Assembly (NCBI GenBank): GCA_963669155.1
Contig: OZ022585.1
Location: 10,767,378-10,831,377 of the forward strand
DNA length: 64,000 bases
Origin: Arbacia lixula
Taxonomy: Eukaryota; Echinodermata; Echinoidea; Arbacioida; Arbaciidae
Direction: 5' to 3'
The notes under the pieces were generated by a model. It did not search any database and had not been told where the DNA came from. It saw nothing but the letters and a program-made list of their open reading frames with translations. This document shows positions 1,792-57,187 of this stretch, in pieces (the first letter of the stretch is position 1; every line of letters begins with the position of its first letter). A program made the position numbers and the translations under genes.

Positions 1792-1855
1792 TTTTGTTCA
1801 TAGTACTGATGGTCGGACTCAAAGTGTAAAGCTGTATTTTTCCCCTTCAATGCAG

Positions 1856-24160: not shown

Positions 24161-24383
24161 ATGAGTGGTTCACGGTCCAACGAAAACCTCAACAATAACA
24201 ATCGGAGAGTAGAACCAATGGTTGGGGCACCTGGTCCCAACAGAGGTGGTGGTACTGTAGACGCTGGGTCCAAGTCAGCACTAGTCCCGAGGCAAGGTTC
24301 GGCTGAGGATCGCACACAGCACCCCCAAGGCTTCCTGAAGAGGACGTCATTTCAACGGCAGAGGAATGTTGACGAAAAAGAAG
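24161..24383 (+). CDS. TAZ-pseudokinase gene, exon 1 (coding start)
   Basis: ATG at 24161 is the first in-frame ATG after the TGA at 24122-24124. The donor is GAAG|GTATGC at 24384, phase 1. It encodes a low-complexity, Asn-, Gly- and Arg-rich N-terminus with no recognised domain. An out-of-frame ATG at 24120 is present upstream if the exon extends that far. A plausible 5'UTR acceptor (TTACAG, about 24099) suggests at least one further noncoding exon upstream. Confidence 0.75.
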
Positions 24384-26268
24384 GTATGCACAATACAACC
24401 CTTACAACCCTTGACCTCCGATGCTAGGGACACCGGTCAATTCACGACAGGACATCGGACATACTTAAACGATGTGTCAAGGATGGGGGCGATTAGAAAA
24501 ATCGAGGAGAGATGGGAAAATTGGAACTCCCTGTTATCTTCGTCCGATCATCCCATGATTCTACCTGAGAGCCCCGGCCATCGTGCGATGACCATGGGTG
24601 TCCGGCCGGCAACCGGTCCAAAATGGCCAAAAAACACATCAGAAGTACATTGTAAACCTAACTGGAGTGAAATGTGACCTAGGCATAACCAGTTCTTCAC
24701 TGAGCACGCATATACAGGTATGCGGGCTGGCTTTTTTTCTACTCAGACACAAAGCGGCATGACTCCCATACAATCTGCTGTTCGGACAATGGACAACAGG
24801 CTACATGTATTTATAAACTTCAAACAACTTATAGGACATAATAAAGCCACTCCCCTTTGGTAAACTGAAGTTCCATGGCAAATTTTGACAACTTTACAGG
24901 GCCAGGGTCTACAAAGCCAGGTAATGTAACCATGAGCAAGGACTGACATTAAGAGTGATTCAGACATGTGATGCTATCATGTCTTTAGCTATGAATGATG
25001 TTAGGAAATTGACAATAATTAAATCATTAATTAAAGCATATATATGAACTCCACATCAGGAAATGGCAAAGACTGCAAGTATTCTTAATCCTAAACGTGC
25101 CACCTGTGGAATATTTCAGAATATTTTCTGGCACACGAAGGGATAATCAATTCAATGATGAACTATTTACCCAGACTAATGGGTATTACACCCAATCCAT
25201 GGTTTACATTTTAAGTTATATGAATGGTCTAGATGCAATCTGTCATCTGAATGTTAGCAATTGAAGGTCAGCAGTATGTATGACTAAGTCCATGGCATAC
25301 AAATGCTAAAAAATTTGGGTCTAGTCAATATATTCTGTAGAGGAGGCTCATTATTGTAAACTGTCGTAAGTCCTGAGTGATGCTACCAACCCTCTATAAT
25401 GGGTGATAATGTATTTATTCATCTCCAAGCCATACTATGAACATCCCCCCTAACCTAGGAGTGGTAATGATTTAATTTTCATGACAATTCTTCTGAAGGA
25501 GAGCACTGGGGTGAGCGGGATTGGTTTGACTCCGGGTTTGAGGAGTCGGTGTCTTCGCTCGGTCAGGGTCTACGCAGGACCAGATCCAAGGACCAGAGTG
25601 ATGGTAGGAGTAATGACGTCGATCCAGCCTGTGAGACACACCAGCTGGACGTCCCCAAACCCAACCACCCGCTATTGAAACGGTCGTGGTCCAGCAGCGA
25701 GAAAACTGACAACGAACTTAAGCTGCTTCTCCCCGACCAGCGTCGCTGTTCCTCAGACAAGCCACGGCTGAGCAGTGGGTATGAGACGGGTACAAGCCAG
25801 GAGCAGGCGAGTTGGGATTGGCCCAATCTGTCGAGTGAAGGAGAGGAGGAGGACGAGGACGAGAAGAAGGAGGGTCAAGGGAATGGAGCAGTTCGCCTGG
25901 ATGATAGCGGAAACCCAGCCAGTCTTAGAGACTCCTGGGAGCAGTCTGGCCTGAGTCGGAGTGAAGGCCATGCTGAGCAGGACGCTGAAGGTGCCATCAG
26001 CTCTCGGGACTCCGCACATCCTGACAGCTCTAGAAACGTGGAAAGAGCCAACAGCGAGCTGAGTAAAGACTCAGACTTTGAGGACATGGCTCAGCAAGGC
26101 TTACGCCTTCAGATTTTCCACGGTCTTTCAGAACGTTACGCAGAACATGCATCATGGGATCCGGAGCAGGTACTCAGCATCTACTAGTGGTTTTCCAGGG
26201 CATCACCCTACCTGATTCCTCTATATATGTAAAAAAAAATTAAATGATATATCTATCTTTCCCATTAT

Positions 26269-26323
<55 letters not shown>

Positions 26324-29300: not shown

Positions 29301-32300
29301 ATCTATTTATCTACCCATCTATCTTTGTATCCATCCGTGTATTTATCTATCCATCTATCTATTTATCAACCCATTTATCTATTTGTCTACCCATCTTATG
29401 TTTTCATCTATTCATCTATATTTATCTCCCCATCTAACTATTTATCTATCCATCTATCTGTTCATCTATCCATCTTTCTATTTATCCATCTTTCTTTTTA
29501 CCCATCTATACTTGTATATGTCCATCTATCCATCTATTCATCTATATTTCTCTCCCCTTCTAACTATTTATCTATCCATCCATCTATTTATCTATCCATC
29601 TATCTATTTATCTACCCATCTATCTATTTATCTACTCATCTATCTATTTATCTACCCATCTATCTATTTATCTATCCATCTATTTATTCATCTATCTGTC
29701 TATCTATCTACCCATCTGTTTACCCATCTATCTATGTATTCATCCATCCATTTATCTGCCCATCTATCTCTTTATCTGCCCATCTATCTATTTATCTATC
29801 TGTCTATTCATCTATCCATCTATCCATCCATACATCCATCCATCCATGAATTAATCCATCCACCTGTCTATTCAACCATAAGGGTAATGCTCATTATATG
29901 ACACCCATATAGATCCCTGTCATTTGATTGTTTGTTTGATATTGATCATTCAGTCCACTTACAATAATGTCATCACCGAGCTATTTTGGATCCATTTATA
30001 GTGCAATTTTGAATCCATACGGTATTGTCCAATGCACGCTCGCCGCTGCAAAAAATTGACCTTTATTACAATAAATCCAAATCCAAGGATGCAATTCTCA
30101 CTAAACATGGTACACAGATAGATCACTACTTGGGGATAGACTGGTGACATTTTGGGTAAAATTTATGAAAGGACAGAGGTCAAAGGTCAACAAACTTTGC
30201 CAAAATTGGCTAAAAACTGCCCCAAACTTTATATTTTTCACAATAAATCAAAATCCAATGGCGCAATTCCAACCAAACATAGTCAAAAGATGGATCACTA
30301 TTTTGGGGTAGACAGGTGACATTTTTGGTGAAATTGCTGGAAGGTCAGAGGTCAAAGAGGAAAAACAGAATATATTTTCATTTCACATAGGACTTCAATG
30401 GTACATTGACCACCAAACATACAGATTTTCTGAGAATTAATCTAAATAGAGCTAGCCAAGAGGCGGAGGTATATTTATCGACTGCGTGGCAGTTGAATTG
30501 CTCTAGTTTTTTCATTCGTGAAATGGACAGAATATTTCAATTGGTGAAAGATGAAATGAATGATCCTTTCAACTCGGCTATGCCTCGTTGAATGGATCTT
30601 TTCATCTTTCACCTCATGATTTATTCTGTCCATTGCACTCATAAGCATTCATTATTTGTATACTGTTCTCCATCCATTGTAGGTTAAGCGAGTCATCCAC
30701 TGTGCGGTTGATCAAACTTCTTCAAAAGACCTTGCTGTTATGAAGATGGAATACTCATTCCCAGAGTGCGACAAGGCTTCCACACCCTCTGTCTCCCTGA
30801 GTATTGCGTGTAGTTCTGAGGATATTTTCATCAGCTCAGAAAGTAAGTTTATTTTTGTTTCAAATGTTCCTCATGTTCATCATATGAAATGTGGATATTA
30901 AGTCCTCTGGCTGCTATTTGTGTAGGGAATATTGATTTATACATGCTGGTGAATGAAGTTTGCACAGGACATAGGACTTCTGATGGTCAGGTAGTTTACA
31001 TTTTGGTTGAATATATTTCTATTAAATTCAAACTATTCTACAAAGGGGTCTCCCTGTAGTAGAAATTAATTGGCAATTGGATATCAAATTTGTCTTCCCC
31101 ACAAACATCAAATTTGTCTTAATTTCTCACAAATTTTCCCAAATAAGCTTTGATATTACAATTTGTTGAATTTGATTTCTTTCCATCATTTGCAGGATCC
31201 TCGGCAGCACATGTTGGTGACACTGAAGGTGAAGCACCCAATCAACACTCTGAGGTACAATGTCACATTTTATACCCTCACATACCATTATATAGCTTTG
31301 TGATGCTCCATTTGTGGTCTAATTCCTCAGAGACCATTTTATAAGATGAAAGCTCATAGGACCCTCTGCCCCCTCCTCCCTGCCCCCACCTCAATAGATG
31401 ACGTGTCAGGTATTGATGATTTCATACATGGAATCTCACCTAGCATGCTGAGGTACTGTGATGCTCTTGTATTCCATGTCCTCAGAGACCATTCTGTAGG
31501 ATGGGGCCACAATACCAAGCATGTTTAAAGAAATGGATATCCATCCCTTTGAACAAGATTTGAAGCGGCCACTCAATATTCATAACTGGCAGCTGCTCTT
31601 AACAATATGATGCATATGCGATTGCATCATGTTCACCTGGATTTTATGATAGGTTATGCATATTTCTAAATGTGAATACATTTTGTCAATTTTGTTAATT
31701 TTGTCAGGAAGTGCTTATTATGTTGTTAACAAGGTCAAGTGAAAACAACATTTGATATTTTTCAAGATGAAAATATAAGATTCGGCACAGCTGGGCACGT
31801 TTTTCGTGTAATAGAGAATTTTTTGAAGGAGTATGATGCAGAACCGTGTGAAATCGAGACTTTTGGATTGCAACTTGAAATCACATTGATATATTCCTTG
31901 ATTGAATTTTTATAGATGCATTGTAGGTATTACATGTCGCAACTGCGCAGGCATATGGTGTGAGGATGTTTCTTCTACGCATCCTAGTTTGATTATACGT
32001 TTGATTACATGTTGTTACATGTTGTGAGGATGTTTCTTCTATGCATCCTAGTTTGATTATACGTTTGATTACATGTTGTTACATGTTGTGAGGATGTTTC
32101 TTCTACGCATCCTAGTTTGATTATACGTTTGATTACATGTTGTTACATGTTGTGAGGATGTTTCTTCTATGCATCCTAGTTTGATTATACGTTTGATTAC
32201 ATGTTGTTACATGTTGTGAGGATGTTTCTTCTACGCATCCTAGTTTGATTATACGTTTGATTACGTGTTGTTACATGTTGTGAACCTTGTTCCAGTTAGG

Positions 32301-33412
32301 ATGTCAACATTTGCCATAGAACTGCAGTAACCACAGGGATGTGACTTAATGGTGTCCTATATGGTATTTGAAGTTTATTCTTAGCCTGTTGTCTATTATC
32401 CAAACAGCGTTAATGTATAAGAGCCGTGCTTATTTTAGCATCTGAGCAGAAAAAAGCCAGCCCGCATACAAGCAGGCTCAGTACTAAATGAGTTAACATG
32501 TTGAGAAATAGCAGTGTGGTATAGCAGTGGCAGCTCAGACTTACAAAATTATTTTGACATAATTAGCATAGAGTAATACCAGCCGAGGATACTGGGCCAT
32601 ATGAGATGCAGAAATTCAGTCATCTGATATTTTTGGGTGTTTTCAACCTTTTTTAGGGTTTGGCCTCTTTGGACTTGACTTGGCACTAGAATCAGATTAT
32701 AATTTACGTTTACGTTCTTCCATTCATTTTTGTACATCATTGCCATGAACTAAAGTTAGTGCGCTCAGCATGATTCAATGTTTTCTAGTATGGTAGCCTT
32801 CATGCATCACATCGCATTTGATGATGTACAGACACCAGCCACAGCTGAGGGTACCCACGAGGTCGATGATGAGCCTATCACAGCAGAGGTTGTCCGGGGA
32901 GGGGTGCTCAACGGTGAGACTAAAAACGACCTGCAGATACATCTGGAACAGCTAGCCTACTGCCAGGCCATGAAGACACCCTACTGCAAAGACTGCGCAT
33001 TGGTAAGGATAGAAGGGAGGGAACCCGGGCCCTGTTTTATAACAACATTTTGTTTGATTGCAACTCGATTTGCGATCAATTTCAAATGGTAAATCTATAT
33101 AAGAGGTTTGGCCTTGTGATTGATGTGAATTGTAACTGTTTACAAGGGTTTTTGACTAGCAATTGATTCAAATCAGTCACAACTCTTTATTAGAATGGCC
33201 CTTGTAGGATCCTCTTACCAAATCAAATCGATACGATTCCGTGGCGCCAAGATTTTGAATGTTGTAAATGACAAGCTTAAACAAACTGTTTTCTTAAGAA
33301 GATTCAAATGTAATTTAATTTAATGTTATTCAAAAAGTATAATTGTCATTCAACATCATTTTTTGTTCTGATAATACCGTTACCCACCTGATATAGTATG
33401 TATATGCATGAC

Positions 33413-33450
<38 letters not shown>

Positions 33451-36400
33451 GTTATGGCTTTTGATGCGTGTATTCCCTTTGTTACTTTCTACGTTGTAGT
33501 ATGATGAATCATTATACCTAATTTAAATGTATTATATGTTTGTAATGTTGGTTAAAGGTACCTCCTGCTTACTCAAGCCTCTGCCACGAAGTGGCCGGAG
33601 GCATTGTGTTTTCGGGTTGTCCATCCGTCAGTACGTATGTCCGTCGGTCCGTCCCGAATCCGTATAGGCAATATCTTGAGAACAGTGAACCAGATTTGCT
33701 TCAAACTTGGTGCAAAAAATTGACCTTTTTCACAATAAATCCAAGTCCAAGGATGTAGTTCTCATTAAACATGGTACACAGATGGATCACTACTTGGGGA
33801 TAGACTGATGAAATTTTTGGTAAAATTCCTGAAAGGTCAGAGGTCAAAGGTCAATGAACTTTGCCAAAATTGGCTAAAAACTGACAGAACTTTATATTTT
33901 TCACAATAAATCCAAATCCAATGGTACATTACCAACTAAACATGGTGCAAAGATGGATCACTACTTGGGGCTAGACTGGTGACATTAATTGGTGAAATAT
34001 CTCAAAGGTCAGAGGTCTAAGGTCAATGAACTTTGCCAAAAATTACCTAAAGATTGCCCCTAAATTGATATTTCTCAAAGTAAATCCAAATCCAATGGTA
34101 CATTACAAACTAAACATGGTGCAAAGATGGATCACTACTTGGGGTTAGACTGATAACATTTTTTGTGAAATTTCTCAAAGGTCAGAGGTCAAAGGTCAAT
34201 GCACTTTGCCTAAATTGGCTATTTTTCACATTGAATCCAAATCTAATGATTCAATTCAAACAAACATGGTACAGAGATGTGTCACTTCATGAAGGGAGAC
34301 TGGTGAAAGTTTGGGTAAAATTCCTGAAAGGTCAGAGGTCAAAGGTTTATGAACTTTGCCAAAATTTGCTGAAAATTGCCCCCAAATTAATACTTTTCAC
34401 AATAAATCCCAATCCAATTATGCATTTCAAGAAAACATGGTAAAAGAATCACAGGGATACAAGGATGAATTTAGACAGACGGGTTAGATTGGAAGTCAAA
34501 GAAGTCAGAGGTCAACGGTCAAATGAACACTGCCAAACTTCGCTAAACATTGAAAAACAGAATAAATGGTATTTTCATTTCACATAGGAATTCACTGGAA
34601 CATTCCCAAACAAACAAACAGATGGTCTGAAAATAATCTGAATAGAGCTAGCAAAGAGGTGGAGGCATATTTATCGACTACGTGGCAGTTGAATTGCTCT
34701 AGTTTTTGGAGGTCTCCGTCGTCTTAGACAGGAATAACCGTCTCGTTCAGGGCATTCTTTAATCTAAATTACATTTTTGGACATACCCCCAAATAGAAAG
34801 AGACTGATTTTTAAGTCTGCCGTAATTTATGCTTTTTCTCAAGTTTGTTTCTTTGTATTTTTATGTTTTTACGTTGATGCAAGAAATACAATTGAATTGA
34901 ATTGAAATGAGAACACCATCCCTTGTATCCATGGTGATGCAGGTGCAGGTCCTTCTGGATGAGTTGAAGGAGCACTACTGGACGAATGAACTGGCATCGT
35001 GCATGCAATGCCGGCAGGTTGCAGAATATTACTGGATTCACAGTACCCGCTGCCGCCGCCGGACAAAGTGCCTGGTGCCTTTTTGTGACTTCTTCAAGGA
35101 ATTGTAAGTAATGGCTCTTCTTTCAAACAGCGTCTCCCTGGTGGGAACCATTGTTGAAAAAGTTGTAACATTTGGTCGTGAACACTGATTAATTTGTTTG
35201 ACTTACCCTTTCGGACTAAGGATATGAAATGGCGGTGGAAGCCCAGCCAAGCAGGACTTTTTGTTCCCTTAGCAGAAAGTTAAGTTTGCGCCCCCCCCCC
35301 CCCCCCCCATACATGCTGTTGAGCAGGACCAGTGTGTACAGATAGATTTTGAAATTGAAATTTTGACTTTTGAGGTATTGCTTTTTTTTTTTTGGGGGGG
35401 GGGATAAATAATCATTTGCTGGGGATTCAAACAAACAATATGAATTGGCGTGGGTGGAGGGAGGGGGGAAAATGTTAAACCATTATTTGCAGGTGGTTCT
35501 TTTTAGCCTTACTGTGGAGGCTGAGATCAACTATATACCCAGCTGCCTATACCTGATTGCAGTCAGTGATTTGCAATGGACATGTAGAAATGCATACTAT
35601 ACCCAGGACGAATAAACAGTAGAAACCTGTAGAGAAAAAACATTAGAACTTGTACTAGAAATTTTCTACTGGTTTGAATATGGAAAGTGGAATGATTTCC
35701 AGTAGAAACCATTAGAAAAATACCAGTAGAACCCATTGGTTTCTAATGGTTTCTACTGGTCTTTAGTACCATTAGACTCTACAGGTTTCTACTGGTTTGA
35801 TTTTGCAGTTCCTCTTCCAACCAGGAGACTCTACATGGTTTCAGAAAAAACAGAAGAAACTATTAGATGATCTCTACTGGTTTCTCAATCTCCTCGGGTC
35901 CCCTAAAATTTTGGTCTCATTTCCATTTCTTTCTCTTAATTTTGCAAAAATTTAAGATGATCGTGACTACTGAAAAGTTGATCAACTATTTTGTTTATTT
36001 AGTTATTATTTTTTTTTTTTTTGGACAGACTCTGTTGTTAAACAGACAAACCAGCACAGGATGTATTTTGTGTGTGTGAGGTCGTTGTGAAAACATGTTT
36101 AAGACAGAGTACCCCATTTGAGATTAAAAAATGAAATTGTGTAAATTCCAAAAAAAAATGGGAGCTACATATTGTGGAAGAACTTTCCATTCTATATTAA
36201 AACTGGAAAGTGACGTTGAGTGGAATTCTATTGATCTTAGATTTCAAGTAGGTTTTGGATGTGGTTCCTGTAGTCTAGAGATCAAGACCCCAATCAGCAC
36301 TCATCACTCCAATTCCCTCCAAACTGTTCCCATTATAATAATAGTAATATTATATATTTATAGAGTGCAGAAACTATTCCATAAAGTATATATTCCACTG

Positions 36401-39400
36401 CGCTCTGTAGGACTCCCAGAATGCTTGTTATCAATTAAATAGATGTGTTTTGAGCTTTGATTTAAAGCTATGTTTACGGATGGTGCTTTCCTAACTTCCA
36501 AGGGTAAGCTATTCCAGAGCTTGGGGGCTACACAAGCAAATGCTCGATAACCTAGCGTTACTTTTGTTTTGAAGGCTGAAATATGTAAAAGCAGAGGATC
36601 CATTGAACTGCACAACTTGCGACCATGATTACTGGTTTCATACCTCAATAATTCTGTAATGTAGCCAGGAGCCTGCCTGCTGGCAGCTGCAAAGCAGTAC
36701 TATGGTTGCCAAGAAACAAAGCATTTCAAACATAAACATGGACATTTTTTCATGAAAACGTTTGTGAAGCTATGACTGAGGAGTTATTCTTCGGATGACG
36801 GAAAGAGCACACTGCCCTAAACGTGGATACTAATACTCTCTCTTTCAGATTTTGAAAGAAAACTCTATAAATTCTATAACTTTTGGTTTCAAACTTAAGC
36901 TAAAAATAGTCTTTCTAAGTCTTATCAAAATAAAACAAAACATCTCTCCTCTTTTCACTCTTTCTTCATTTCACAAGTGGGTCAATTATCCAAAAGAATA
37001 CAACCATGTGGTGTTACCAAAACTTTAACTATTTTCTAAATAGTATTTATTAGTACACTCTCACCATGGAATCATTCAAAGAACATTTATATGACTGAGT
37101 GTATACTTTCCTGTTTTAGTGGGAAAGTGCCTACACCTAACAATGTGATATCCTTGTTTCTTCTCCATGCAGACGAAACGGAATTCTAGAAGAGCTCGGG
37201 GCTGTAGATTCGTTCACAGAAGCTTTTGCCTGTTTGCAAATGAGCACTCACATGTATCTTCTCGAGAAATTCCATGATTTGGAAGAATTAAAGAAGAAGC
37301 AGGTCAATGGACACAAGATTTGGGTAAGACTCTGACATACATTAGATTAATTACTTGTGATAATAATTACAATAATGTGCCATTTTTATCAAGCGCAAGT
37401 CACCCCAAGAGTCTCTATACACCGGAAATAAAGAAAAACAGAACTATAGAGGGAAGAAGGTAGTTACAGTAATAAGTTAACAATGTTTTTTTAACTTTTT
37501 TCCTTTGATCAAAGAAAATTGTCTGTATTGTATGAAAAGGTAAGTATTGAACATAGAGTTGCAATTCTCTGTTGAGTCTGCTTATTTAACCCTTTTCTGA
37601 CTGGGCTTTTTGAGAGCAGGTTTTGACTGGGGGGGTTCAGTTTGACACCCCCCCCCCCCCCCCCTTTATATTTTGGCCACGGAATGTTGAATCAACGCAA
37701 ACATTTGCATAGAGATACATGTTAATGCCTAGTTACTAGGCTGAGGAGAACATGGCTACAACTGAGTCTGTTAACAACTATGTCTGGAAAATACAGACTA
37801 GGCCCCCTAATCCCTCTGACTGCCCTGGATCCTCTTTTTCGCCTGCTCCACAGGCAAGGAAGAGGATCTAGGGCAGTCAGATGGGTTAGGGCCTAGTCTG
37901 TATTACCAGACATAGTTGTTAACAGACTCTGTTGTGACCACGTACTCTTCAGCCTAGTAACTAGGCTACGTGTGCTCCTAAGGACCTAGATGAACAAAGG
38001 TCAAAATACAAGCTCACACGGACTGCCCTGGGAAACATGCTGTACATGTAGCAGTTAACTCGACAAAATGGTTGAGTAAATCGGAGGTTGTGGCTGTGAT
38101 GTTGTGCTCGTTGTGGTCTGGTGATGCCCGAGATGAGCCGGATTTCAGGAGGCAGAGAGATCTGAACAAGATTGTGGTGTATTTTGAAGAGCATCTCGCA
38201 TTGATTGAGCAAGCAGCGGTGTTGAAGTGTGTCCCAGCCAAGAGATGACAGCATGGTGGTGACACTAGATTCTCTTCTGTAATCATGTAGGACGAATCTG
38301 GCAGCTTGTCTCTGTATGCCCTCTATGAGACACAGTCATCTGCAAACAATCTTATTGATGATGATACGTTGTCGCATATGTCATTGATGTACATGAGAAA
38401 TAGTGCTGGACCAAGGACTGATCCCTGAGCGACCCCAGAGAGGACATCCGCTGATGGTGATGTGGCTCCATTTACCGACACAGTTTGGGATCGGCCAGTC
38501 AGGAAACCCTGGATACAGTTAATAGTTGGTCCTTGGATGCCGTAGTACTTCAGCTTGTGAACTAGCTTTCGATGTGACACCCTGTCAAATGCCTTGCTGA
38601 AATCAAGGAAGATCACGTCAGTTTGATGCTGCTGGTTGATGTTGCTAGCCCAATCATTAACGGCTTCCACAAGCTGGGTTTCACAAGAACGTCCTTGCCG
38701 GAATCCATGTTGATTGGGAGTGAGGATGTCATTTTTTTGCCAAAAACTTGGACATGTGGCTCAAAACGATCTTCAGACCTCTTCACAACCTCAGTACATT
38801 ATATTATGTCAATATGTCAAAGTATGGTAACATGTATTTGATGTATGTTTTTTTTTAATTTGTGTTTGTATTATTGTGTGAGTTGTGAAAACAATCAACT
38901 AAACTTAAATCTTGAAATTGTTGCATAAAATTGAAATTGACTTTCTGAAATGGTTACATGTACAGCCCATGGGGATGTTAGAACCCGACCATGATCTCAA
39001 GATGCTCCATAGTTTTAACCATTTCCCTTATAGCAGTAACAATTTGAAAGCGTTGTCATATTTCAAATGTTCCTTAAATGTTTCTATGGTGAGAGTGTAC
39101 TAATAAATACAACTACACAATGTTACCGGAAGCATTTTTTTTTCCAGAAAAGTACTTGTCATTCTTGTTTCTTCATACTTGTAATTCGTTCTCCCAGGAA
39201 AATATATTACTTATTTTCCAAGCAATGGTGCCATGATCGAAATTGACATATTGACAACTGTTTAGCATTATACTGCCTTAATCGCACAAAAGAAAACAAG
39301 TGACAAATCACTCAAATCTGGGTCATTGGTATTCTTAGATTGTACCCAGCAGATCCCTACATATGGCCAAAATGTGGACAAGAAATATTCATCTGGCTTT

Positions 39401-42400
39401 GAGATATTCAATCTAACATGATGTGGTGTTGCACTGATGCCAGTGCAAGTGACAGACATATTTTGCTAATTTACAAGAAAAGTCTCTTTCGTTAGTTGCT
39501 TCCTTTTGTCAGATTAGGGCAGTATACCCCATGAGGGTTTTGCTTTTTTGCATGGGGGCTTATTTTGCATTCGATGCTGGGGCTTTATTCAGCACTACTC
39601 AGGATATACATTACCCTGGGCCCCCGTGCCATCTCTTTTTTTCATGCTCTCTTCATCAGGCCGCAAATGATTTGAGTGCGAGCCTTGCAATGGGGCACCC
39701 AAACTGCAGCCTGCACCCACTCAAGGCCCTGGGCCCATTTGGTCACTTCGCCCCGCTCTATGGATTGGTTTGTCGGAAGAGCTCCTCGCACCAAGTTGTC
39801 ATTAAGAAGGTATGGATGCTCTAAGGGGACACACAGAATTCATAATCGATAACATATATAACACACCACGGGTGCTGTGTTTCACCAAGCTGTTCTTAAA
39901 CTAAGAACAATTTTACACACAACTGGTGACCCTTTCTTGTGCGAAATCAGATTCTCAATGATTTTGATTCCCATTAGCTAAAGTTCAAAACTGATGGTTA
40001 CAAATAAAAATTCTTATTATCAATAAGTGTCTGAATACAAAGTTTTTGATTTCTCAAATTTGATTAGGATTGATTAGGATTGTTGGAAATGAACTTCCAC
40101 TATGTTAAAACAGGAACAAAGTAGGCTATCTGATTTTGCACAAGAAAGGGTAACCAGTCGTGTGTAAAGTTGTTCTTAGCTTAAGAAGAGCTTGGTGAAA
40201 CACCCCCCAGTGCTTGTGAAAGAATAGTGATGGAAAATGATTGTGACCCATAATCATGGTGGAACTGTTCTACCATCATCACAGAGCCCAAAGTGTGATT
40301 GATTTCAATGATTTTATCATTTTGAGAGAATTTTTTCCTGGTATCTTGAAGAAGGGGACCCATTGTTAAAGGTGGCCTGTCCATCGTACAAACATTTGCA
40401 AACTTCATGAAAGTTTGCACATATTTAGCACGTATCTTTGAGATGCCAACTGTAAGAGGTCAGAGGTACTATAATTCCCATAGAATAAATGAAAATCTAA
40501 CACTGAGATTTGATTCCAATTGATTGCCGACCGTTGTCTCTTTGAAATTACGATTATTTTCGTGGTACGAAAAAAGAAAGCTCAATCAATCGTCGAATAT
40601 TATTTCCTCAAAACCGAATATTACGCTTTGTGGATTCCAGGGAAAGGTTATATAGCCACTCTTTCTGAAATGATGACAAAGTCAGGGAACTTTCAGAATT
40701 AGGTCGGCAAAAGGGACGGGTTACCTTTAAGGTAGAATCATGGCACTTTATTGATTCCTAGTTCTGTATTCTGTACCACTACTACCATTCAACTTTAGAT
40801 GTTAGAATTGTCAAAATTAGATCAGTTTTAATCCTTTGCTGCTGTCATATACAGTATCTCTCTGCCTTTCTTGCCTAGTTTTCCTCTTTTTGTATCTGTA
40901 TTTCTTTCTCTGTCTTTCCTCTGTGTATGATCATTAAATTTCTTTCTTTTTTTAATATTTCCCCTTCTCATGTGTATCCTTTCTTTCACTACCTCTTTGC
41001 CTAACTCTTATTGCTTATTTTCTCTCGTCTTTATCCTTCTCTCTTTCTCTGTTTCTCTCACTTTCTATTCCCCCCCTCTCTCTCCCCCTTTCTCTCTTTC
41101 TCTCGCTTATTCACTCTTCCTTCACCTATTTTATCTCACTCTCTCCTTCCCGTCCTCATTCTCGTATCGTCCCTCTCTATGCTTCTGCATGTCTCTCCGC
41201 TTGTATCTCCCCATTCTCTTCCAACCCACACATTCATTCTGTCAACCTCTCCTTTCTCTTCCATATCTCTCATTCTCTTTACCCCCTTCCATCCACACTC
41301 CCCCACTCCCCCCCCCCCCCCTACAGGTTACATTCACTGATGATCTTGCTGCTGTCTTAGAGTTACTACCAGCCATCACCAACTCGTGCTGGTCAGTCTG
41401 TCTGTGGTATCGCCAGCTCAACAGGGAGAAACTCATTACCTGCTCTACCTACTTTGAAGGTAGGTGTACACGCTTGGCCTCTCCATGGGACTTGTGTGCT
41501 TTACTGGTAAATAAAAAAAACTTCACACATGGCATTTAACGAGTGAAATGAATGAGTATACCCCAGTTGAAAAAAAAAATTGGCTGAAAAAAGGGAAAAC
41601 GTAGTTCCAGAAATATTTTTTTGGTCTGCTTTTTCCCTATTTTATAAAAGGAAAAAAATAGGGGAAAATGTTTTGAAAATAGAAAAAAAATAGGATTGAA
41701 ACAATTTTTTTCAATTTTTTTCCTTTTTTTATCAGGCCTAAAAATATGAAAAAATAGGAGAAAATAGTGAACAGTAATGAATAGTGAACACTGAACAATG
41801 AAAAATAGGAAGAAGTTAGGGGGGAAACAGTAATGAAATAGTGAAGAAAATAGATTTTTCTTATTTTTTCCTGATTTTCTTGAAGGAAATAGGAAAAAGT
41901 GTAAATTCTATAGAATAAGGAAAAAATAAGAAAAAGAGAGGAAAAAGATATATTTTGGCTAAAAAAAAAATGTTTTTCGTATACACGAAACATTGGAGTT
42001 TGTCCCTTTGTTCTGTCCCTAATCACAAAATGTTGAAAATATTTGTGAATCAGTATCTTATTCTTCCTGTACCACTCTCTATCTCTGTATTTGTCTCTGA
42101 GTTTCGCTGCCTCTCTCCAAGTTTCTCTGAGTCTTTCTGTCTTTCTCTTCTTTTCCTCATTTCTGCCCCTCTTTTTGCCTTTCTCTCTCTCTCTTTCTCT
42201 GTCGTTCGGTCTGTCTCAGTCTCTCCCTCCCATACTTCTTGTCTTTCTCGCTCTGTGTGTGTCTAACTCTATATTCATCTTCCGCCTTCCAAGTGTGCAA
42301 TCACCATCACAATATCGCTCTTCCTCCCTGCAACTGTCCTTATCCTTCATCCTTTATATTGTGTGCATTACTCCATAGAGAAACCCCTCTCAGATCTGCT

Positions 42401-45400
42401 TCCAATAGCCCCGTTACAGCAGGATGAATTCTTCCAACAAGCCATAGATGCTGCTATAACGCTGCACGAGCAACAGATCATCTACCTCAACTGGAAAGGT
42501 ACTACACAGAAACAATGTTTCAGTTGTCTTTCATTTGTCACATAACTAACCCTGATCAGGCTGGGGGGGGGGGGGGGGGAATGCGCCCCACCCACACTTT
42601 ATATCGCTCAATCATTCTGAAATGCAAACAACTTTCACTGCGAGATTTCATGAATTTTTTCTTTGAAGTCTTGTGCAACTTGCGACACCAAACCTGCAAC
42701 GACCAGGGCTCCATAACATGAAGGTTTGTGATCAATTCCAAATTTGAAAGACAAATTCTGATTGGTTACTGGTCACTCTTTTGACAAAAAAGCACATGTA
42801 ACAATGGCATTGATTGGTCATTGCTACTTTGCGATTGATTGCAGACCTTTATGTTATGGAGCCCTGATATACCATTGCGACGTGGCATCTTTTTTGCCGG
42901 GTGCTGTGATTTTGTGTATGAACTCTAAAACACCAATTATTTTTCATTTGAATGATTTGAATTAATTGATTTTAGTCTTTTTATAGCTCAATAATGGGGT
43001 GTTATGAGTTACAGTAAAAAACACAGTCGTGAACAAAAGTATAAAAAAGAACAACAGAAATACAATACAAATAATTAAAAATCAAAAATCTACTTATGCA
43101 AACTTATGTTAAGCATTTAGTAATATATATATATTACCTTGTGATGTTTCAAAGCAAAAGAAGGGTCAAATGATCACTGAATTTTCAAATTGGCAATGTG
43201 CTGAAAAGGTTGAAATCCTAATTTTGCTCCTCAAATTGGCATGATCATTGCTCAAACAATTAAAAAGGTAATCAGTTATGCTTCTAAAAGGCCTTTGTCC
43301 TGAATTTTCAGTAGCAGCACAAAATGGCACGCTACAACAATCCTAATGTTTTGGGGGGAAACTGTTGCTGAACCTATGATCATTGATATTGGTTTCATTT
43401 TTCCTACAAGATGTTTCAAGTATAGCGCTAACAAGACTGATTTTCCTTTTCCCCTGGTATGAAGACTAATGAGAGAGCTGTTGGTGTACTTCAGCCATAA
43501 GTATGTAATTTACCATTACCTGGATTGTAGAGTTTGTATCAGAAATGCCCATCAGTTTGGCTGAAGGGATCATCTTTATCATCATGAAAGGAGGAATGAT
43601 TATTTGACAATTTCCATTTCAAAAGGGGTTAAATCCATTCCAGGCATTTATAATCGTATTGCTTTATTTCAAGTTTGGTGTACATTTTGGAGATGTATAT
43701 CACCTTAGATGATTACAAAATACTCAAGTTTCAACAATCTGTTATGTATTTTTTATTGTTATGAATATTCAAAAATATATACATTGTGGATTTAATCCCT
43801 GTGGAATGAAACATGATTTTGGACCTTGAAATTTCTCCCTCTCATACGGATTTGGAAACATGCATTCTATTTCCATATCTTGTAGGAAAGTTGTATTACA
43901 ACAAAACAATGCATTGTGATAAAATATGGATTTATTCCTTTTTTGTCTCGCCTGAACAAAGTTTGGCAGAGACCTAGTAATCACTTTTCCTGTTAGTCTG
44001 TTGGTCTGTTACAAAAGTGTTAAAGTTTTTGTTTTACTTGCTCTCATTTCTTTAGTTCCACATCAATTGTGATCAAACTTGGTACAAATGGTCCTTGGGT
44101 AATACCACATGTGTTGTCATGAGGATGATGGGGTCAAAGGTCATCTAGGGGTCAAAAGGTCAAAATGATACGAGGCCATGTGCATTATTTTTCTCAAAGT
44201 TTTTGTTTGACTTGCTCTCATTTCTTTATTTCTGCATCAATTTTGATCACACTTAGTACAAATGATCCTTGGGTAATACTACGTGTGTTGATGAGGATGG
44301 TGAGGTCAGAGGTCATCTGGGTACCATTTTAGATATTTGAAAAAAAAACTTCGCACTGCGAAATCAGGCGAGACTCATGGTTTGTGAACCACCTTTTGGA
44401 ATGAAACTCTTCATTGGTCTTCCCATGTGTTCCTTGCAGTGGAACACCTGATCGTGAGGCACCGGACCCTCCAGTTGTGTAACTTCTCCTGTGCCATGAG
44501 GCTGCAGCAGGCATCCAGAGATCTCAGTGGGCTGGAGGGAGGGGGGTGGCAGCTCAACAACGTCCCCGCCCATGTCATGGCAGAACTGGACCCTCGAATA
44601 GCCCCGCCCGAGGTGAGACGATGAGAGGCCAAGCCCCCATAGAATGAAAGAGGAAGTTGTAGCTGTGTTGTGTTGTTTCTGGTTGTCCATTTACACAATA
44701 TCTCAAGAACCGTTCAACGAATTTGCTTCACACTTCATACCTTTATGTAATTTACCAAACCAATGGCCTGTTTAAATTTGGGGTCAAATCGGATAGAGGT
44801 GAAAGGTCGAATGTCAATGAACTTTGCCCCACAAACCAATATTTGAAATTTGATATTTGACACATTAAATCCAATGCTCCTCTTCCAACCAAACGTGCTG
44901 CAAAGAAAGACTATGACATTGAGGTGAATGAGTGACATTTTGGGAAAATCCCTGAAAGGTCATGGGTCATTAAACTAAATGGTAGACAAAAATTGATAAA
45001 ATAGCCGCTAGTGTGATCTTTCTCCAGATATCTCGAAATATAATTATCCATTTTCAACCAAACTTGATGCAAAGTTGTATCAATATACTGGCGATATACA
45101 TGTAAGAGGGCAAATTCCTTTGGGGTCAAATTTCAATGAACTTTGGCAGTAATTAGGAATTCAATGGTTCAATTTCAACCAAACACACAAGTTTTCTGAG
45201 CTTGAATGAGTTTAAATCCAGATAAAAGCGGCAGCATATTCACTGACTGCGTGGCAGTCAAATGACTCTTTTGACCAGTTCTATAGAGTCCTAGTTTTAG
45301 AGGGCAAAAGTTGTCATCTCTGACGGTTGACCGCTGTTGACCATATCTGTCTCCTTGCTGTCTTTCAGGTCTTGAAGGGCACAGGCTTGTCCCTGAAGTC

Positions 45401-46187
45401 GGACACATGGGGGCTGGGGTGTCTGATGTACCAGCTCAAATACGGCGGGGCTCTGCCTGGCCACAAGGAACTCTGCCATCTTAGTGATGAGGAAGTCAAA
45501 CAAAAGGTCTGAAGGGGCAAGCAAATTTCCTTGGCCCTGTCTTATAAAGAGTTGCGATTGAGTGCAACTTGACTTTGATATCCACTTGACTTGTGATTGA
45601 TATCAATCGTAACTCTGTGCATTAAAGATAAGGGATTAGACTTGCTATCATTCAAATCAATCAGGACTCTTTATAAGACAGGGCCCTTTTCTTCTCAATT
45701 TTATTAGAGGTAAAGGAAATGAGTTCAAATTTGATTGAATAACAGTATTCTTTGAATTCTCAAAAAAGAAAGCACTAGCCCTAGCCTGAGTACAAAATTG
45801 ATTTGAATTTCTCTCTCCCTCTTATGTTTTCCCCACTATCCCCCCCCCTCCTCTTCCATTACACACACATACTATCTCTTTTCACCTCTCTCTCTCTCTC
45901 TTTTACATTCTTATTCCTCCCTTTCTGTCCCCATCCCTCAAACCCTTGCCGACATATAGCGGTTGTTGCCAGGTTATAAGTACCTCCCACAAGCCGAGAA
46001 ATACGAACCCTTCGACTCGTGCTGGAATCACCAAGAGGAGAGGCCACTGCCTGGAGAGCTGCTTAGGATCCTCAGGAGGGACAGGGAATTTCAAGACTCT
46101 CCTCTCTTTTCGTCACCTAGAGAGAAGAGAAGCGGATCTCCTGTCGATTCTGACCGCAATAGTGTCACACCATATTCTAAGGCATAA
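24161..46187 (+). CDS. TAZ zinc finger + pseudokinase protein, 13 exons, predicted 845 aa
   Basis: Exons: 24161-24383, 25499-26169, 30683-30842, 31196-31254, 32832-33002, 34943-35103, 37173-37323, 39660-39809, 41327-41459, 42379-42498, 44440-44612, 45369-45506 and 45960-46187. Every junction is GT/AG, all phases match and the sum is 2538 nt. An in-frame TGA at 24122 precedes the ATG. Residues 1-400 are mostly polar, acidic and Ser-rich. Residues 405-482 resemble a TAZ zinc finger, with the strongest part a HxxxCx5Cx4C site ending CLVPFC. Residues 553-790 follow protein-kinase order: a degenerate Gly loop (557-562), VVIK lysine (580/581), a hinge-like segment, an alpha-E helix, the HRD position replaced by YLN (662-664), the DFG position by NFS (681-683), APPE (721-724) and DTWGLG (736-741). 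It is therefore predicted catalytically dead as a phosphotransferase. I do not recognise a named orthologue. A scaffold or signalling role is only inference. Confidence 0.83.
24384..25498 (+). other. Intron 1 of TAZ-pseudokinase gene
   Basis: No further exon or clear repeat is recognised. Confidence 0.5.
25499..26169 (+). CDS. TAZ-pseudokinase gene, exon 2 (acidic Ser-rich region)
   Basis: Acceptor CTGAAG at 25498, donor CAG|GTACTC at 26170, phase 1 in and phase 0 out. It supplies residues 75-298. It holds DSGFEES (85-91), a possible beta-TrCP phosphodegron, a basic patch LRRTRSKD, an acidic run EGEEEDEDEKKEG, and many Ser residues in acidic or basic settings. It is probably disordered, and no domain is recognised. 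Confidence 0.82.
26262..26600. repeat. TATC array, block 1
   Basis: A perfect (ATCT)n core at about 26274-26320 followed by degenerate CCATCCAT units. In intron 2 of the TAZ-pseudokinase gene. Confidence 0.85.
26868..27208. repeat. TATC array, block 2
   Basis: ATCT, ACCC and ATCC tetranucleotide units. Interrupted on the right by a MITE at 27213. Confidence 0.9.
27213..27437. mobile_element. 225-bp MITE inserted in the TATC array
   Basis: Perfect 28-bp terminal inverted repeats, 27213-27240 and 27410-27437, beginning CACAACAAAAAAGTAAG. The unique interior (27241-27409) has no coding capacity. The target duplication cannot be resolved in the repeat. Confidence 0.85.
27438..28140. repeat. TATC array, block 3
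   Basis: Continuation of the array after the MITE, about 0.7 kb. All three + frames are open only because the unit has no stop codon. Confidence 0.9.
28477..29880. repeat. TATC array, block 4 with higher-order repeats
   Basis: About 1.4 kb of ATCT-type units. A longer motif, with TAACTATTTATCTATCCATC as landmark, recurs at about 28548, 28672, 28792, 28967, 29178, 29430 and 29558, often together with GCTTGTATATATCCATC, which shows a higher-order unit of about 120-250 bp. Confidence 0.85.
30048..30506 (+). mobile_element. Helentron/pearl-like element, 5'-truncated fragment
   Basis: Contains about two core repeats and the complete 3' end (CGACTGCGTGGCAGTTG then AATTGCTCTAG). The 5' hairpin and microsatellite are missing. 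It lies in intron 2 of the TAZ-pseudokinase gene, directly before a hairpin element at 30518. Confidence 0.55.
30518..30640. mobile_element. Small hairpin element
   Basis: GGACAGAATA and GGTGAAAGATGAA on the left match TTCATCTTTCACC and TATTCTGTCC on the right, with a loop near TCGGCTATGCC. It lies between a Helentron-like fragment and exon 3. Confidence 0.55.
30683..30842 (+). CDS. TAZ-pseudokinase gene, exon 3
   Basis: Acceptor ATTGTAG at 30682, donor A|GTAAGT at 30843; phase 0 in, phase 1 out. It gives VKRVIHCAVDQTSSKD and onward to SSEDIFISSE, a mixed beta-rich-looking stretch of 53 residues. No domain is recognised. The frame is fully open and joins both neighbours in phase. Confidence 0.78.
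31196..31254 (+). CDS. TAZ-pseudokinase gene, exon 4 (59 nt)
   Basis: A small exon with a good acceptor (TTTGCAG, 31195) and donor GAG|GTACAA at 31255. Its two leading bases complete an Arg codon from exon 3 and it leaves phase 0. It encodes a short linker, RSSAAHVGDTEGEAPNQHSE, before the zinc-finger exons. It is supported by splice signals and phase only. Confidence 0.65.
31959..32282. repeat. 64-bp minisatellite, five units
   Basis: Unit starts at 31959, 32023, 32087, 32151 and 32215, each beginning TGTGAGGATGTTTCTTCTA. Units are nearly identical, with a C/T change alternating between copies. In intron 4 of the TAZ-pseudokinase gene. Confidence 0.9.
32832..33002 (+). CDS. TAZ-pseudokinase gene, exon 5 (first part of TAZ finger)
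   Basis: Acceptor TGTACAG at 32831, donor TTG|GTAAGG at 33003, exactly 57 codons. After an acidic linker it encodes LQIHLEQLAYC then YCKDC, corresponding to the first zinc site of a TAZ finger (H408, C415, C423, C426). TAZ1/TAZ2 of CBP/p300 have the same order, but the His-Cys spacing here is longer than usual. Confidence 0.82.
33027..33203. mobile_element. GGGCCCT-type inverted-repeat MITE
   Basis: GGGCCCTGTTTTATAA at the left and a complementary end (TTATTAGAATGGCCC) at the right, with GATTGATGTGAATTGTAAC modules inside. It begins 25 bp after exon 5. Confidence 0.55.
33416..33445. repeat. (GT)n microsatellite
   Basis: About 15 GT units in intron 5 of the TAZ-pseudokinase gene. Confidence 0.9.
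33577..34702 (+). mobile_element. Long Helentron/pearl-like element, copy 2
   Basis: Same family as 331-1791: a GCCTCTGCCAC / GTGGCCGGAGGC hairpin start, a shorter degenerate GTCC run, about five core repeats with AGGTCA half-sites, and the same AATTGCTCTAG end. It sits in intron 5 of the TAZ-pseudokinase gene, in the same orientation. Confidence 0.6.
34943..35103 (+). CDS. TAZ-pseudokinase gene, exon 6 (second part of TAZ finger)
   Basis: The acceptor is ATGCAG at 34942, with a second AG six bases on (34948) that would drop two residues (Val-Gln). The donor is TT|GTAAGT at 35104. It encodes HYWTNELASCMQC (H439, C448, C451) and the canonical third TAZ site H461, C465, C471, C476 ending CLVPFC then DFFKEL. 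The second site seems to lack one of the usual four ligands. Confidence 0.83.
35612..35885. repeat. Self-complementary degenerate repeat of AGTAGAAACC / GGTTTCTACT
   Basis: Many copies of AGTAGAAACC and ATTAGAA and their complements in both orientations in 270 bp. In intron 6 of the TAZ-pseudokinase gene. Confidence 0.65.
36340..36660 (-). mobile_element. Non-LTR retrotransposon 3' coding fragment
   Basis: The minus strand encodes YETSNHGRKL, then RAFACVAPKLWNSLPLEVRK, the usual tail of invertebrate CR1/jockey-type polymerases. Only the last 95 residues or so remain. In intron 6 of the TAZ-pseudokinase gene. Confidence 0.7.
37173..37323 (+). CDS. TAZ-pseudokinase gene, exon 7 (helical linker)
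   Basis: Acceptor CCATGCAG at 37172, donor TGG|GTAAGA at 37324. Its first base completes a Leu codon. It encodes RNGILEELGAVDSF then KFHDLEELKKKQ, a probable helical linker between the zinc finger and the kinase-like domain. Confidence 0.8.
37727..37967. mobile_element. Foldback element with AGCCTAGTAACTAGGCT ends
   Basis: Outer GCCTAGTTACTAGGCTGAG and inner TGTTAACAACTATGTCTGG, TACAGACTAGG and CTGACTGCCCT all recur as complements on the right arm; the centre is near 37840. A half-length relative lies at 63314-63400. Confidence 0.75.
37972..38735 (-). mobile_element. Internally deleted non-LTR retrotransposon
   Basis: The minus strand from about 38735 reads LTPNQHGFRQGRSCETQL, then FLDFSKAFDRVSHRKL (motif A), GVAQGSVLGPALF (motif B) and RLFADDC (motif C). 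At about 38328 it jumps to IEGIQRQAARFVLHDY and the C-terminal tail, so roughly the thumb and connection region are missing. CR1/L2-like by motif style; non-functional. It abuts the foldback element at 37727. Confidence 0.8.
39271..39524. mobile_element. CTGCCCTAATC-type MITE, copy 1
   Basis: Left TACTGCCTTAATC and right GATTAGGGCAGTA are inverted repeats. The interior (AAATCACTCAAATCTGGGT, AGATTGTACCCAGCA, TCTAACATGATGTGGT) is shared with 48676-48903. In intron 7 of the TAZ-pseudokinase gene. Confidence 0.7.
39660..39809 (+). CDS. TAZ-pseudokinase gene, exon 8 (N-lobe of kinase-like domain)
   Basis: Acceptor TTCATCAG at 39659, donor AAG|GTATGG at 39810, 50 codons, phase 0 both sides. It contains GPFGHFAPLYG in the position of the glycine-rich loop (GPFGHF, not GxGxxG) and ends HQVVIKK, the beta-3 strand with the VAIK-type lysine. 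The first 20 residues are linker. Confidence 0.8.
39870..40208. mobile_element. Inverted-repeat element with GTTTCACCAAGC ends
   Basis: GTGTTTCACCAAGCTGTTCTTAA and its complement AGAAGAGCTTGGTGAAACAC mark the ends, and CACACAACTGGTGACCCTTTC matches the right arm. 61 bp after exon 8. Confidence 0.7.
40860..41326 (+). repeat. CT-rich tract before exon 9
   Basis: About 450 bp of C/T-rich sequence ending in a C-run and the exon 9 acceptor. Frames through it are low complexity. Confidence 0.7.
41327..41459 (+). CDS. TAZ-pseudokinase gene, exon 9 (alpha-C to hinge)
   Basis: The acceptor is a C-run then CTACAG at 41326; donor G|GTAGGT at 41460, phase 0 in, phase 1 out. It encodes a helix LAAVLELLPAI followed by beta-4/5-like CWSVCLWYRQLNREKLIT. 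This fits alpha-C through the hinge of a kinase fold. Confidence 0.78.
41560..41970. repeat. A-rich degenerate repeat of GAAAAAATAGG units
   Basis: Low-complexity GGAAAAAATAGG and AATAGTGAA units in intron 9 of the TAZ-pseudokinase gene. Confidence 0.6.
42379..42498 (+). CDS. TAZ-pseudokinase gene, exon 10 (alpha-E and catalytic-loop position)
   Basis: Acceptor CCATAG at 42378, donor AAAG|GTACTA at 42499, phase 1 to phase 1. EKPLSDLL then FFQQAIDAAITLHEQQIIYL match the hinge-to-alpha-E segment of kinases, where IIHRDLK is expected. Here IIYLNWK is found: the catalytic Asp is Asn664 and the His-Arg is Tyr-Leu, while the Lys is kept. Confidence 0.82.
42703..42866. mobile_element. CAGGGCTCCATAACAT inverted-repeat MITE
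   Basis: CAGGGCTCCATAACAT on the left and ATGTTATGGAGCCCTG on the right are a perfect inverted pair. Interior with GTGATCAATT and GCGATTGATTG modules. In intron 10. Confidence 0.75.
43945..44395. mobile_element. Dispersed repeat, GTCTCGCC family copy 2
   Basis: GTCTCGCC start and complementary GGCGAGAC near the end (44367-44374). It carries GGGTCAAAGGTCA at 44131-44143. It sits in intron 10 of the TAZ-pseudokinase gene, immediately before exon 11. Confidence 0.65.
44440..44612 (+). CDS. TAZ-pseudokinase gene, exon 11 (DFG position to APE)
   Basis: Acceptor CCTTGCAG at 44439, donor GAG|GTGAGA at 44613; phase 1 in, phase 0 out. LQLCNFSCA stands where kinases have VKLxDFGxA, so the DFG Asp is Asn681 and the Gly is Ser683. 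The segment ends ELDPRIAPPE, an APE motif that marks the end of an activation segment. Confidence 0.83.
44685..45270 (+). mobile_element. Helentron/pearl-like element, diverged fragment
   Basis: Begins within the ATATCTCAAGAACCGT segment, carries diverged core repeats and ends near GACTGCGTGGCAGTC, with the terminal CTCTAG mutated. It lies in intron 11 of the TAZ-pseudokinase gene. Confidence 0.5.
45369..45506 (+). CDS. TAZ-pseudokinase gene, exon 12 (subdomain IX)
   Basis: Acceptor TCTTTCAG at 45368. LKSDTWGLGCLMYQLKYG is a clear subdomain IX (DxWxxG). The donor AAG|GTCTGA at 45507 has GT but poor downstream consensus; the phase (0) still fits exon 13. The exon keeps structural residues of the C-lobe, so the fold is probably intact. 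Confidence 0.8.
45533..45686. mobile_element. GGGCCCTGTCTTATAA inverted-repeat MITE
   Basis: GGCCCTGTCTTATAAAGAGT on the left and its near complement on the right (ACTCTTTATAAGACAGGGCC). Interior GATTGATATCAATCGTAACT. In intron 12 of the TAZ-pseudokinase gene. Confidence 0.75.
45960..46187 (+). CDS. TAZ-pseudokinase gene, exon 13 (C-terminus)
   Basis: Acceptor ACATATAG at 45959; stop TAA at 46185-46187. It encodes RLLPGYKYLPQ, an EERPLPGELLRILRR segment that fits the last C-lobe helices, then a Ser/Pro-rich tail ending VTPYSKA. An AATAAA hexamer at 46481 could end the transcript. Confidence 0.8.
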   Translation, partial: RLLPGYKYLPQAEKYEPFDSCWNHQEERPLPGELLRILRRDREFQDSPLFSSPREKRSGSPVDSDRNSVTPYSKA

Positions 46188-56785: not shown

Positions 56786-57187
56786 ATGTTGGACTTAGCT
56801 TGCGTGATGTCACTGACCTGCAGCGGTGGTCTAACGTCCGTGCCCACAGAGGCGATTGGTCAAAGCAGGGAGAGCAACCACTACCCTAACCACCACCACC
56901 ACCAGCACATGCCGCCTCTAGCCGCCGGCTGCTCGATCACCGCTACGACCAGGGGCGCGCTCCGGTTCGTTGCTACCAGGCCGAGGTCATTGACCACGAA
57001 GCCGGTTCCTATCATTGAGAGGAGGCAGGGGGTGATGGCGGTCGTCGGGAGATCGACGATGTCAAGGGAATTAATGGCGAGGTACCCGCACTCGAAGCGG
57101 GTCGGACCGTATCTTCTCGGCCGGACCATCGGGGAGGGAAGCTTCGCCAAAGTAAAAGAAGCTATGCACAGTCTCATCGGAGAAAAG
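56786..57187 (+). CDS. HUNK: HUNK-like kinase, first coding exon
   Basis: A TAA at 56783-56785 lies directly before the ATG at 56786, so the start is in this exon. Candidates are ATGs at 56786, 56807, 56909 and 57035; which one is used cannot be decided. The N-terminal 100 residues include a His run (36-41, with one Gln) and basic Thr/Pro-rich sequence not conserved in vertebrates. The donor GAAAAG|GTACGA at 57188 leaves phase 0, splitting the protein just before VAIK. Confidence 0.85.

Follow-up and report, generated by a model that had tools for sequence, protein, structure and literature searches.

To our knowledge, TAZ domains are known almost only from CBP/p300 and from plant BT proteins. 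A locus of the sea urchin Arbacia lixula, which lies in a 64,000-nucleotide stretch of contig OZ022585.1 (hereafter, the window), raises the question of whether a TAZ-type zinc module and a kinase-like domain are joined in one protein, how far this protein extends and what it might do. An earlier note on this DNA, made from the sequence alone, had predicted here a gene of 13 exons for an 845-residue protein, in which a TAZ-like block precedes a pseudokinase, and had proposed a signalling scaffold.

Gene model and relatives in other sea urchins

The predicted gene, at 24161..46187 of the + strand, was reproduced exactly from the sequence, with 13 exons that all have AG/GT borders and compatible phases and together encode 845 residues and a stop codon (Table 1). 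The G+C content is higher in all 13 exons than in their 300-base flanks. The codon scores, which were calculated by a leave-one-out procedure and compared with sampled stop-free intron windows, are unmatched by any such window for exons 1, 2, 5, 6, 8, 11, 12, and 13 (8 of the 13). The score of exon 4 is intermediate (equalled by 59/8,095 windows), and those of exons 3, 7, 9, and 10 are near zero, within reach of 3–5% of the windows (99/2,788, 90/3,036, 181/3,599, and 144/4,005, respectively). Exon 3 scores 0.00 bits per codon and is outscored by two antisense frames.

Table 1. Exons of the predicted gene and other features of the window, in order of position
Feature	Position	Strand	Content	Basis or remark
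CCDC181-like gene	1694-3283	+	upstream of the predicted gene	no Pfam family; protein matches
Probable further exons of the CCDC181-like gene	3887-4270 and 4693-4971			by eye
Reverse-transcriptase fragment	14973-16094	-		RVT_1, E 5.8e-28
Exon 1	24161..24383	+	residues 1-74, disordered-looking	borders, phase, codon score
Exon 2	25499..26169	+	residues 75-298, acidic/Ser-rich	long open frame, strong codon score
DSGFEES stretch in exon 2	25528-25548	+	presumably resembles the DSG phosphodegron motif	
Simple repeat in intron 2	26216-29898	+	long; Ser/Ile/Tyr/Leu-rich	open stretches in three forward frames
Exon 3	30683..30842	+	residues 299-351, beta-rich by eye	phase fits; among the weakest exons
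Exon 4	31196..31254	+	residues 352-371, short acidic linker	phase fits
Tandem repeat in intron 4	about 31930-32290	+	unit of about 60 bases	by eye
Exon 5	32832..33002	+	TAZ-like site 1, Q-x3-C-x7-C-x2-C (32949-32996)	Diadema alignment
Exon 6	34943..35103	+	TAZ-like site 2, H-x3-N-x4-C-x2-C (34973-35011); site 3, H-x3-C-x5-C-x4-C (35039-35086)	
Exon 7	37173..37323	+	connects the TAZ block to the kinase; by eye, looks helical	both relatives match weakly
Reverse-transcriptase fragment in intron 7	38326-38760	-		RVT_1, E 8.2e-19
Exon 8	39660..39809	+	kinase N-lobe: LGPFGHF instead of the Gly loop (39729-39749); VVIK (39795-39806)	
Exon 9	41327..41459	+	kinase alpha-C to beta-5 region	tblastn of both relatives
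Exon 10	42379..42498	+	alpha-E helix; YLNWK at the place of HRD-x-K (42483-42497)	tblastn, TTK alignment
Exon 11	44440..44612	+	LCNFS at the place of xxDFG (44475-44489), activation segment, start of DPRIAPPEV	tblastn, Pfam PF00069
Exon 12	45369..45506	+	alpha-F SDTWGLG (45399-45419), C-lobe	tblastn of both relatives
Exon 13	45960..46187	+	end of C-lobe, C-terminal tail, stop codon	alignment of the relatives only
AATAAA	46481		poly-A-like signal, 3' of exon 13	
Protein kinase gene	57074-57193 and 62806-63126	+	ordinary protein kinase	PF00069, E 1e-23 (62806 piece)

The Pfam search gave no match of any kind for exons 2 and 3, and a faint RWD-like reading of these exons, made by eye, is for this reason not put forward. 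Among the neighbours of the gene, the CCDC181-like gene (here taken as 1844-3283) has 13 protein matches, of which the best named come from Lytechinus variegatus, L. pictus, and Diadema antillarum (49%, 47%, and 45% identity, respectively); those from Amphiura and Glandiceps lie well below the urchins. The ordinary kinase gene, which we take to resemble HUNK, probably begins near 57074 (MARYPHSKRVGPYLLGRTIGEGSFAKV, by eye), and its 57074 piece is without a Pfam match.

A protein search with the 449-residue core of the model, in which the 8,000 candidates with the most common words were scored (eligible length about 247–786 residues), returned only two proteins at E ≤ 1, both of them uncharacterized: LOC129258540 of Lytechinus pictus (P0014; 395 residues, E 1.7e-58) and a protein of Diadema setosum (P0015; 406 residues, E 4.9e-51), each with 36% identity to the window core. 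When the 845-residue query was used, no protein reached E ≤ 0.001 for region 395–815 among 6,864 candidates of about 465–1479 residues; as a positive control, a query with the neighbouring CCDC181-like protein retrieved urchin proteins from the same database. Among these 8,000 candidates of about 247–786 residues, the predicted family has so far been seen only in sea urchins. The Diadema annotation holds the whole zinc block with its three sites, the linker, and the dead kinase in one protein. The annotation of the Lytechinus protein begins inside the zinc block and comprises site 3, the linker, and the kinase, without zinc sites 1 and 2, and the full TAZ block and the kinase thus occur together in two of the three proteins (window and Diadema). 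The architecture that the earlier note had suggested searching for in other proteomes is accordingly present as a whole in Diadema and from TAZ site 3 onward in Lytechinus.

In tblastn searches of both relatives against the window, exons 6–12 are matched in order on the + strand, exons 6, 7, 9, 10, 11, and 12 by the Diadema protein and exons 7–12 by that of Lytechinus. The matches are strongest at exons 12 (E 8.1e-11 and 1.6e-5), 11 (9.3e-8 and 1.2e-5), 9 (1.3e-6 and 6.7e-4), and 10 (8.8e-5 and 0.003), each found with both relatives. Exon 6 is found with the Diadema protein (E 3.5e-5), exon 8 with the Lytechinus protein (E 0.010) and not with that of Diadema, and exon 7 weakly with both (E 0.028 and 0.12). 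Matches elsewhere in the window reach E 0.59 at best, and the weak single-exon matches gain weight because they fall in exon order. For exons 5 and 13, tblastn found no match, and their support from the relatives comes from alignment: exon 5 and the Diadema protein have AYCQAM and two more Cys in common, with 13 of 27 aligned residues identical, and exon 13 has 14/47 and 15/64 identical residues with the two relatives. The linker of exon 7 is conserved among the three proteins, its invariant residues including L, L, E, G, and W, and this, together with the 406-residue Diadema annotation, argues for the earlier placement of a TAZ-like block and a pseudokinase in one predicted protein.

The N-terminal end of the model is a different matter. 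By blastp, the Diadema protein covers residues 409–815 of the 845-residue model and the Lytechinus protein residues 454–809, with upstream hits at E 1.6 and 2.5 only, and residues 1–371 (exons 1–4) have no counterpart in either. Of the 845-residue protein of the earlier note, the part encoded by exons 5–13 is thus matched by the relatives and residues 1–371 are absent from both; the full-length form is unproved, and exons 1–4 may or may not belong to the gene. There is close to an even chance that the locus encodes one protein of about 400–490 residues that starts in or near exon 5, exons 1–4 being a separate upstream gene or an alternative isoform, and the 845-residue protein would therefore be an over-join. 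Both relatives start late, with 14 residues ahead of the first zinc Cys in the Diadema protein and a start still further on in that of Lytechinus, and an ATG at 32778 or 32790 stands upstream of exon 5 and in frame with it, after an in-frame TAG, so that a protein of 488 residues could begin at 32790 without exons 1–4. The near-zero codon score of exon 3 points in the same direction, whereas the strong coding scores of exons 1 and 2, the intermediate score of exon 4, and the fit of all phases speak for the longer form. Furthermore, since the first two zinc sites are missing from the Lytechinus protein, the relatives may have been annotated with starts that are too late. The shorter protein overlaps with the explanation that we favour below, which takes no side on exons 1–4.

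The zinc block and the TAZ2 domain of CBP/p300

Residues 1–90 of the Diadema protein, compared with the PDB, gave 17 matches, 15 of which are p300/CBP TAZ2 domains, the best being p300 TAZ2 at E 2.7e-8 with residues 5–86 aligned, and a profile of the three family sequences gave a similar result (15 of 16 matches, best E 6.8e-9). TAZ1 chains were absent from the PDB matches of both the Diadema segment and the family profile. For the 84-residue window fragment, eight of nine PDB matches are p300 TAZ2, at whole-sequence E values of 0.025–0.055 and with a best single stretch of about E 1, which makes the predicted window block, taken alone, a marginal TAZ2 match. As a yardstick, a p300 TAZ2 query in the same test finds whole TAZ1 domains at E 0.0057–0.039, and a TAZ1 query finds TAZ2 chains at E 0.00025–0.46. 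When the family profile was used over its whole length, the best 60 of 784 PDB matches were all kinases. An hhalign comparison of two small alignments gave a probability of 61.7% and E 7.7e-5.

The Pfam family zf-TAZ (PF02135), with which the earlier note had proposed to check the block, matches neither the window protein, whole or in pieces, nor the Lytechinus protein. In the Diadema protein it scores 18.9 bits (E 0.0021) on a fragment of the first 100 residues and 11.9 bits (E 0.32) on the whole protein. All three proteins fall short of the gathering cut-off of 25 bits, and control TAZ sequences of CBP/p300 score 54.5 and 73.5 bits. With a profile of four TAZ sequences, the score of the window fragment was reached by none of 4,997 scored shuffles and none of 5,000 in which Cys and His were kept fixed, the margin over the best of the latter being small (20.0 vs 19.7); for the Diadema fragment, no shuffle of 5,000 and none of 5,000 with Cys/His fixed reached the real score, and the margin is larger (28.4 vs 21.9). 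AlphaFold2 models had pLDDT values of 31.9 (two-sequence Diadema/Lytechinus alignment) and 54.6 (window exon 6 alone), which are too low for the fold to be read.

A TAZ domain has three HCCC zinc sites, of whose 12 ligands 10 are present in the window block (Q,C,C,C / H,N,C,C / H,C,C,C, the His of site 1 being replaced by Gln and a Cys of site 2 by Asn) and 10–11 in that of Diadema (K,C,C,C / a Cys near the His position followed by C,C,C / H,C,C,C). Site 3 is complete in all three proteins and agrees with CBP/p300 TAZ2 in its ligand pattern, H-x3-C-x4/5-C-x4-C with the ending VPFC or LPFC; the spacing in this last site is x5 in the window and x4 in p300 TAZ2 and both relatives. The Diadema segment is similar to CBP/p300 TAZ2 over nearly its whole length. 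Unlike CBP/p300 TAZ2, the window and Diadema blocks have lost the His of site 1 (Gln or Lys instead), and site 2 reads H..N in the window, whereas in the Diadema block its His seems to be replaced by Cys. Judged by these comparisons, the zinc block is homologous to the TAZ2 domain of p300/CBP, though below Pfam's curated cut-off. The TAZ-like block of the earlier note is thus upheld as a TAZ2 homologue, by way of the Diadema protein, and not as a canonical three-site TAZ domain in the window.

Another Cys/His zinc finger, for instance of the TRAF type (C-x2-C...H-x3-C), which would resemble TAZ2 site 3 by chance, is a very unlikely reading of the block. It would be in keeping with the two missing ligands of the window copy, with the silence of zf-TAZ there, with the Cys/His-fixed shuffle that almost equals the window score, and with the stretch C-x2-C-x9-H-x3-C, which is also readable as a CCHC unit; however, it leaves the match of Diadema residues 5–86 to p300 TAZ2 and that of the profile unaccounted for. 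The TRAF-type reading in particular was rejected, since the PDB matches at E up to 10 include no TRAF-type chain and the Pfam matches no zf-TRAF, and p300 TAZ2 is found instead.

Outside the homologous TAZ2-type block, the resemblance to known TAZ proteins ends. The acetyltransferase, bromodomain, and KIX domains of CBP/p300 are absent, by Pfam, from the window protein and its relatives, in which the Pfam matches are the kinase, the weak TAZ of the Diadema protein, and, for the 84-residue window fragment, one chance match at E 5.4; NCBIfam gave one weak and irrelevant match, to a DNA cytosine methylase (E 0.056). Plant BT (BTB-TAZ) proteins carry a TAZ-type domain outside CBP/p300, with BTB as its partner. 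The partner in the urchin protein is a dead kinase instead, and no Pfam match to BTB was found in the window protein, its pieces, or the relatives.

The blocks also differ in charge. Counted over whole segments of unequal length (81–94 residues) and not as a surface calculation, the net charge is +15 for the TAZ2 domains of p300 and CBP and +9 for TAZ1, against 0 for Diadema and +1 for the window, and by this count the strongly basic character of the CBP/p300 TAZ domains is missing from both urchin blocks. Because the net positive charge is lost, the ligand of the TAZ-like block is probably not an acidic activation segment of the kind bound by CBP/p300, which makes the binding of such segments, put forward in the earlier note, doubtful.

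A kinase-like domain with altered catalytic residues

The kinase-fold domain proposed in the earlier note is confirmed by the HMM search, in which PF00069 scores 37.3 bits in the window protein, 46.5 in that of Lytechinus, and 46.3 in that of Diadema, all above the cut-off of 31.7 bits. YLNWKV and LCN are the same in all three aligned proteins, and alignments with TTK place YLN on its HSD (the HRD motif) and CNF on the IDF of its DFG motif. The Asp of HRD and the Asp of DFG are both Asn, and the Asn of the catalytic loop is His, in all three proteins, from which the GxGxxG loop is also absent by eye. In Diadema, Ser stands at the position of the VVIK Lys, which the window and Lytechinus proteins keep; the Lys that follows this position and the Lys of the catalytic loop are present in all three. 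The domain is a predicted pseudokinase by loss of both catalytic Asp, in agreement with the earlier note. Since the C-lobe landmarks DPRIAPPEV and SDTWGLGC are invariant in the three proteins, the kinase fold is probably kept and catalysis probably lost, and ATP binding may remain because of the Lys that follows the VVIK Lys position in all three.

It is extremely unlikely that the domain is an active kinase which works by an unusual mechanism. The lysines are what such a mechanism could draw on, namely that of VVIK in the window and in Lytechinus, the adjoining one, and that of the catalytic loop, but the three substitutions at HRD, DFG, and the catalytic loop are shared by all three proteins, none shows GxGxxG, and Diadema has Ser at the position of the VVIK Lys.

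The solved sequences nearest to the predicted pseudokinase region, whether a single sequence or the profile was used, are ULK4, TTK, and BTK, all of them too distant to assign the kinase to a subfamily, and the best single-sequence match is ULK4 (E 1.1e-6). ULK4 is a pseudokinase in which the kinase domain is N-terminal and is followed by helical repeats. The DFG motif is replaced in both, as NFC in ULK4, whereas ULK4, unlike the window kinase, retains the Asp of the catalytic loop (FCD). Tribbles, KSR, and the urchin KSR3 likewise combine a protein-kinase fold with broken catalytic motifs, and we know of no pseudokinase scaffold of the Tribbles/KSR type that carries a TAZ-type module. The KSR-related KSR3 is reported to activate ERK signalling in sea urchin embryos (PMC10322840).

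Proposed role and significance

We consider it fairly likely that the conserved core of the gene (about 32832–46187) encodes a divergent TAZ2-type module joined by a linker to a catalytically dead kinase, and that this protein would act as a scaffold or decoy. The TAZ2 fold in CBP/p300 binds helices, and the zinc module would accordingly serve as a docking platform for a helix, the dead kinase domain would offer a second binding surface or an allosteric one, and the protein, whether scaffold or decoy, would join the partner of the TAZ module with that of the pseudokinase without phosphate transfer. The scaffold role follows from the dead active site and from what is generally known of pseudokinases. 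From the signalling scaffold of the earlier note, the joining of a kinase-like and a TAZ-like module is retained, the binding of acidic segments is doubtful, and residues 1–371 may or may not be part of the protein.

A related arrangement is that of MLKL, in which a helical module and a brace precede a dead kinase. By analogy, a zinc-stabilised helical module and a helical brace might be held against the dead kinase domain until a signal releases the module, a reading for which the order of zinc module, linker, and dead kinase and the report of an MLKL homologue in an echinoderm (PMC11932488) could be adduced. However, no sequence link to MLKL was found, the zinc module resembles TAZ2 and not the MLKL bundle, and the N-terminal four-helix bundle of MLKL is absent from the Pfam matches of the window protein and its relatives, all of which makes such a switch very improbable.

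Starting again from the TAZ2-type scaffold or decoy, a more far-reaching proposal, which we regard as speculative and rather unlikely, is that echinoids have fused a CBP/p300-type TAZ2 to a dead kinase and thereby obtained a new class of signalling scaffold, a TAZ-gated pseudokinase switch with a new helix ligand. The neutralised TAZ surface would have gained this ligand, which might be the pseudokinase or the N-terminal region of the protein itself.

The literature search, outside of which lay most subscription journals and bioRxiv, found no paper that describes an architecture of TAZ zinc finger and kinase or pseudokinase, and the statement of the earlier note that it knew of no named kinase or pseudokinase family with a TAZ finger agrees with the matches listed. 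No paper was found under the Lytechinus locus name LOC129258540. Among the matches listed for sea urchins and echinoderms, none contains "TAZ zinc finger", and none of those listed for sea urchin pseudokinases is, by its title and the start of its abstract, about the window protein. One paper contains both "pseudokinase" and "TAZ domain"; judged from its abstract, it is about the Hippo coactivator TAZ, which is unrelated, and it was set aside. The main text of PMC3681718 contains no word starting with TAZ.

The presence of a TAZ2-like module on a predicted dead kinase would mean that such a module is able to enter a new context and perhaps, since the charge is lost, to take on a new ligand. 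The protein is also a candidate pseudokinase scaffold in a group of animals in which KSR3 is reported as an activator of ERK in the embryo (PMC10322840). If the proposal of a TAZ-gated switch were true, recognition of the coactivator type would be linked to kinase signalling in these animals.
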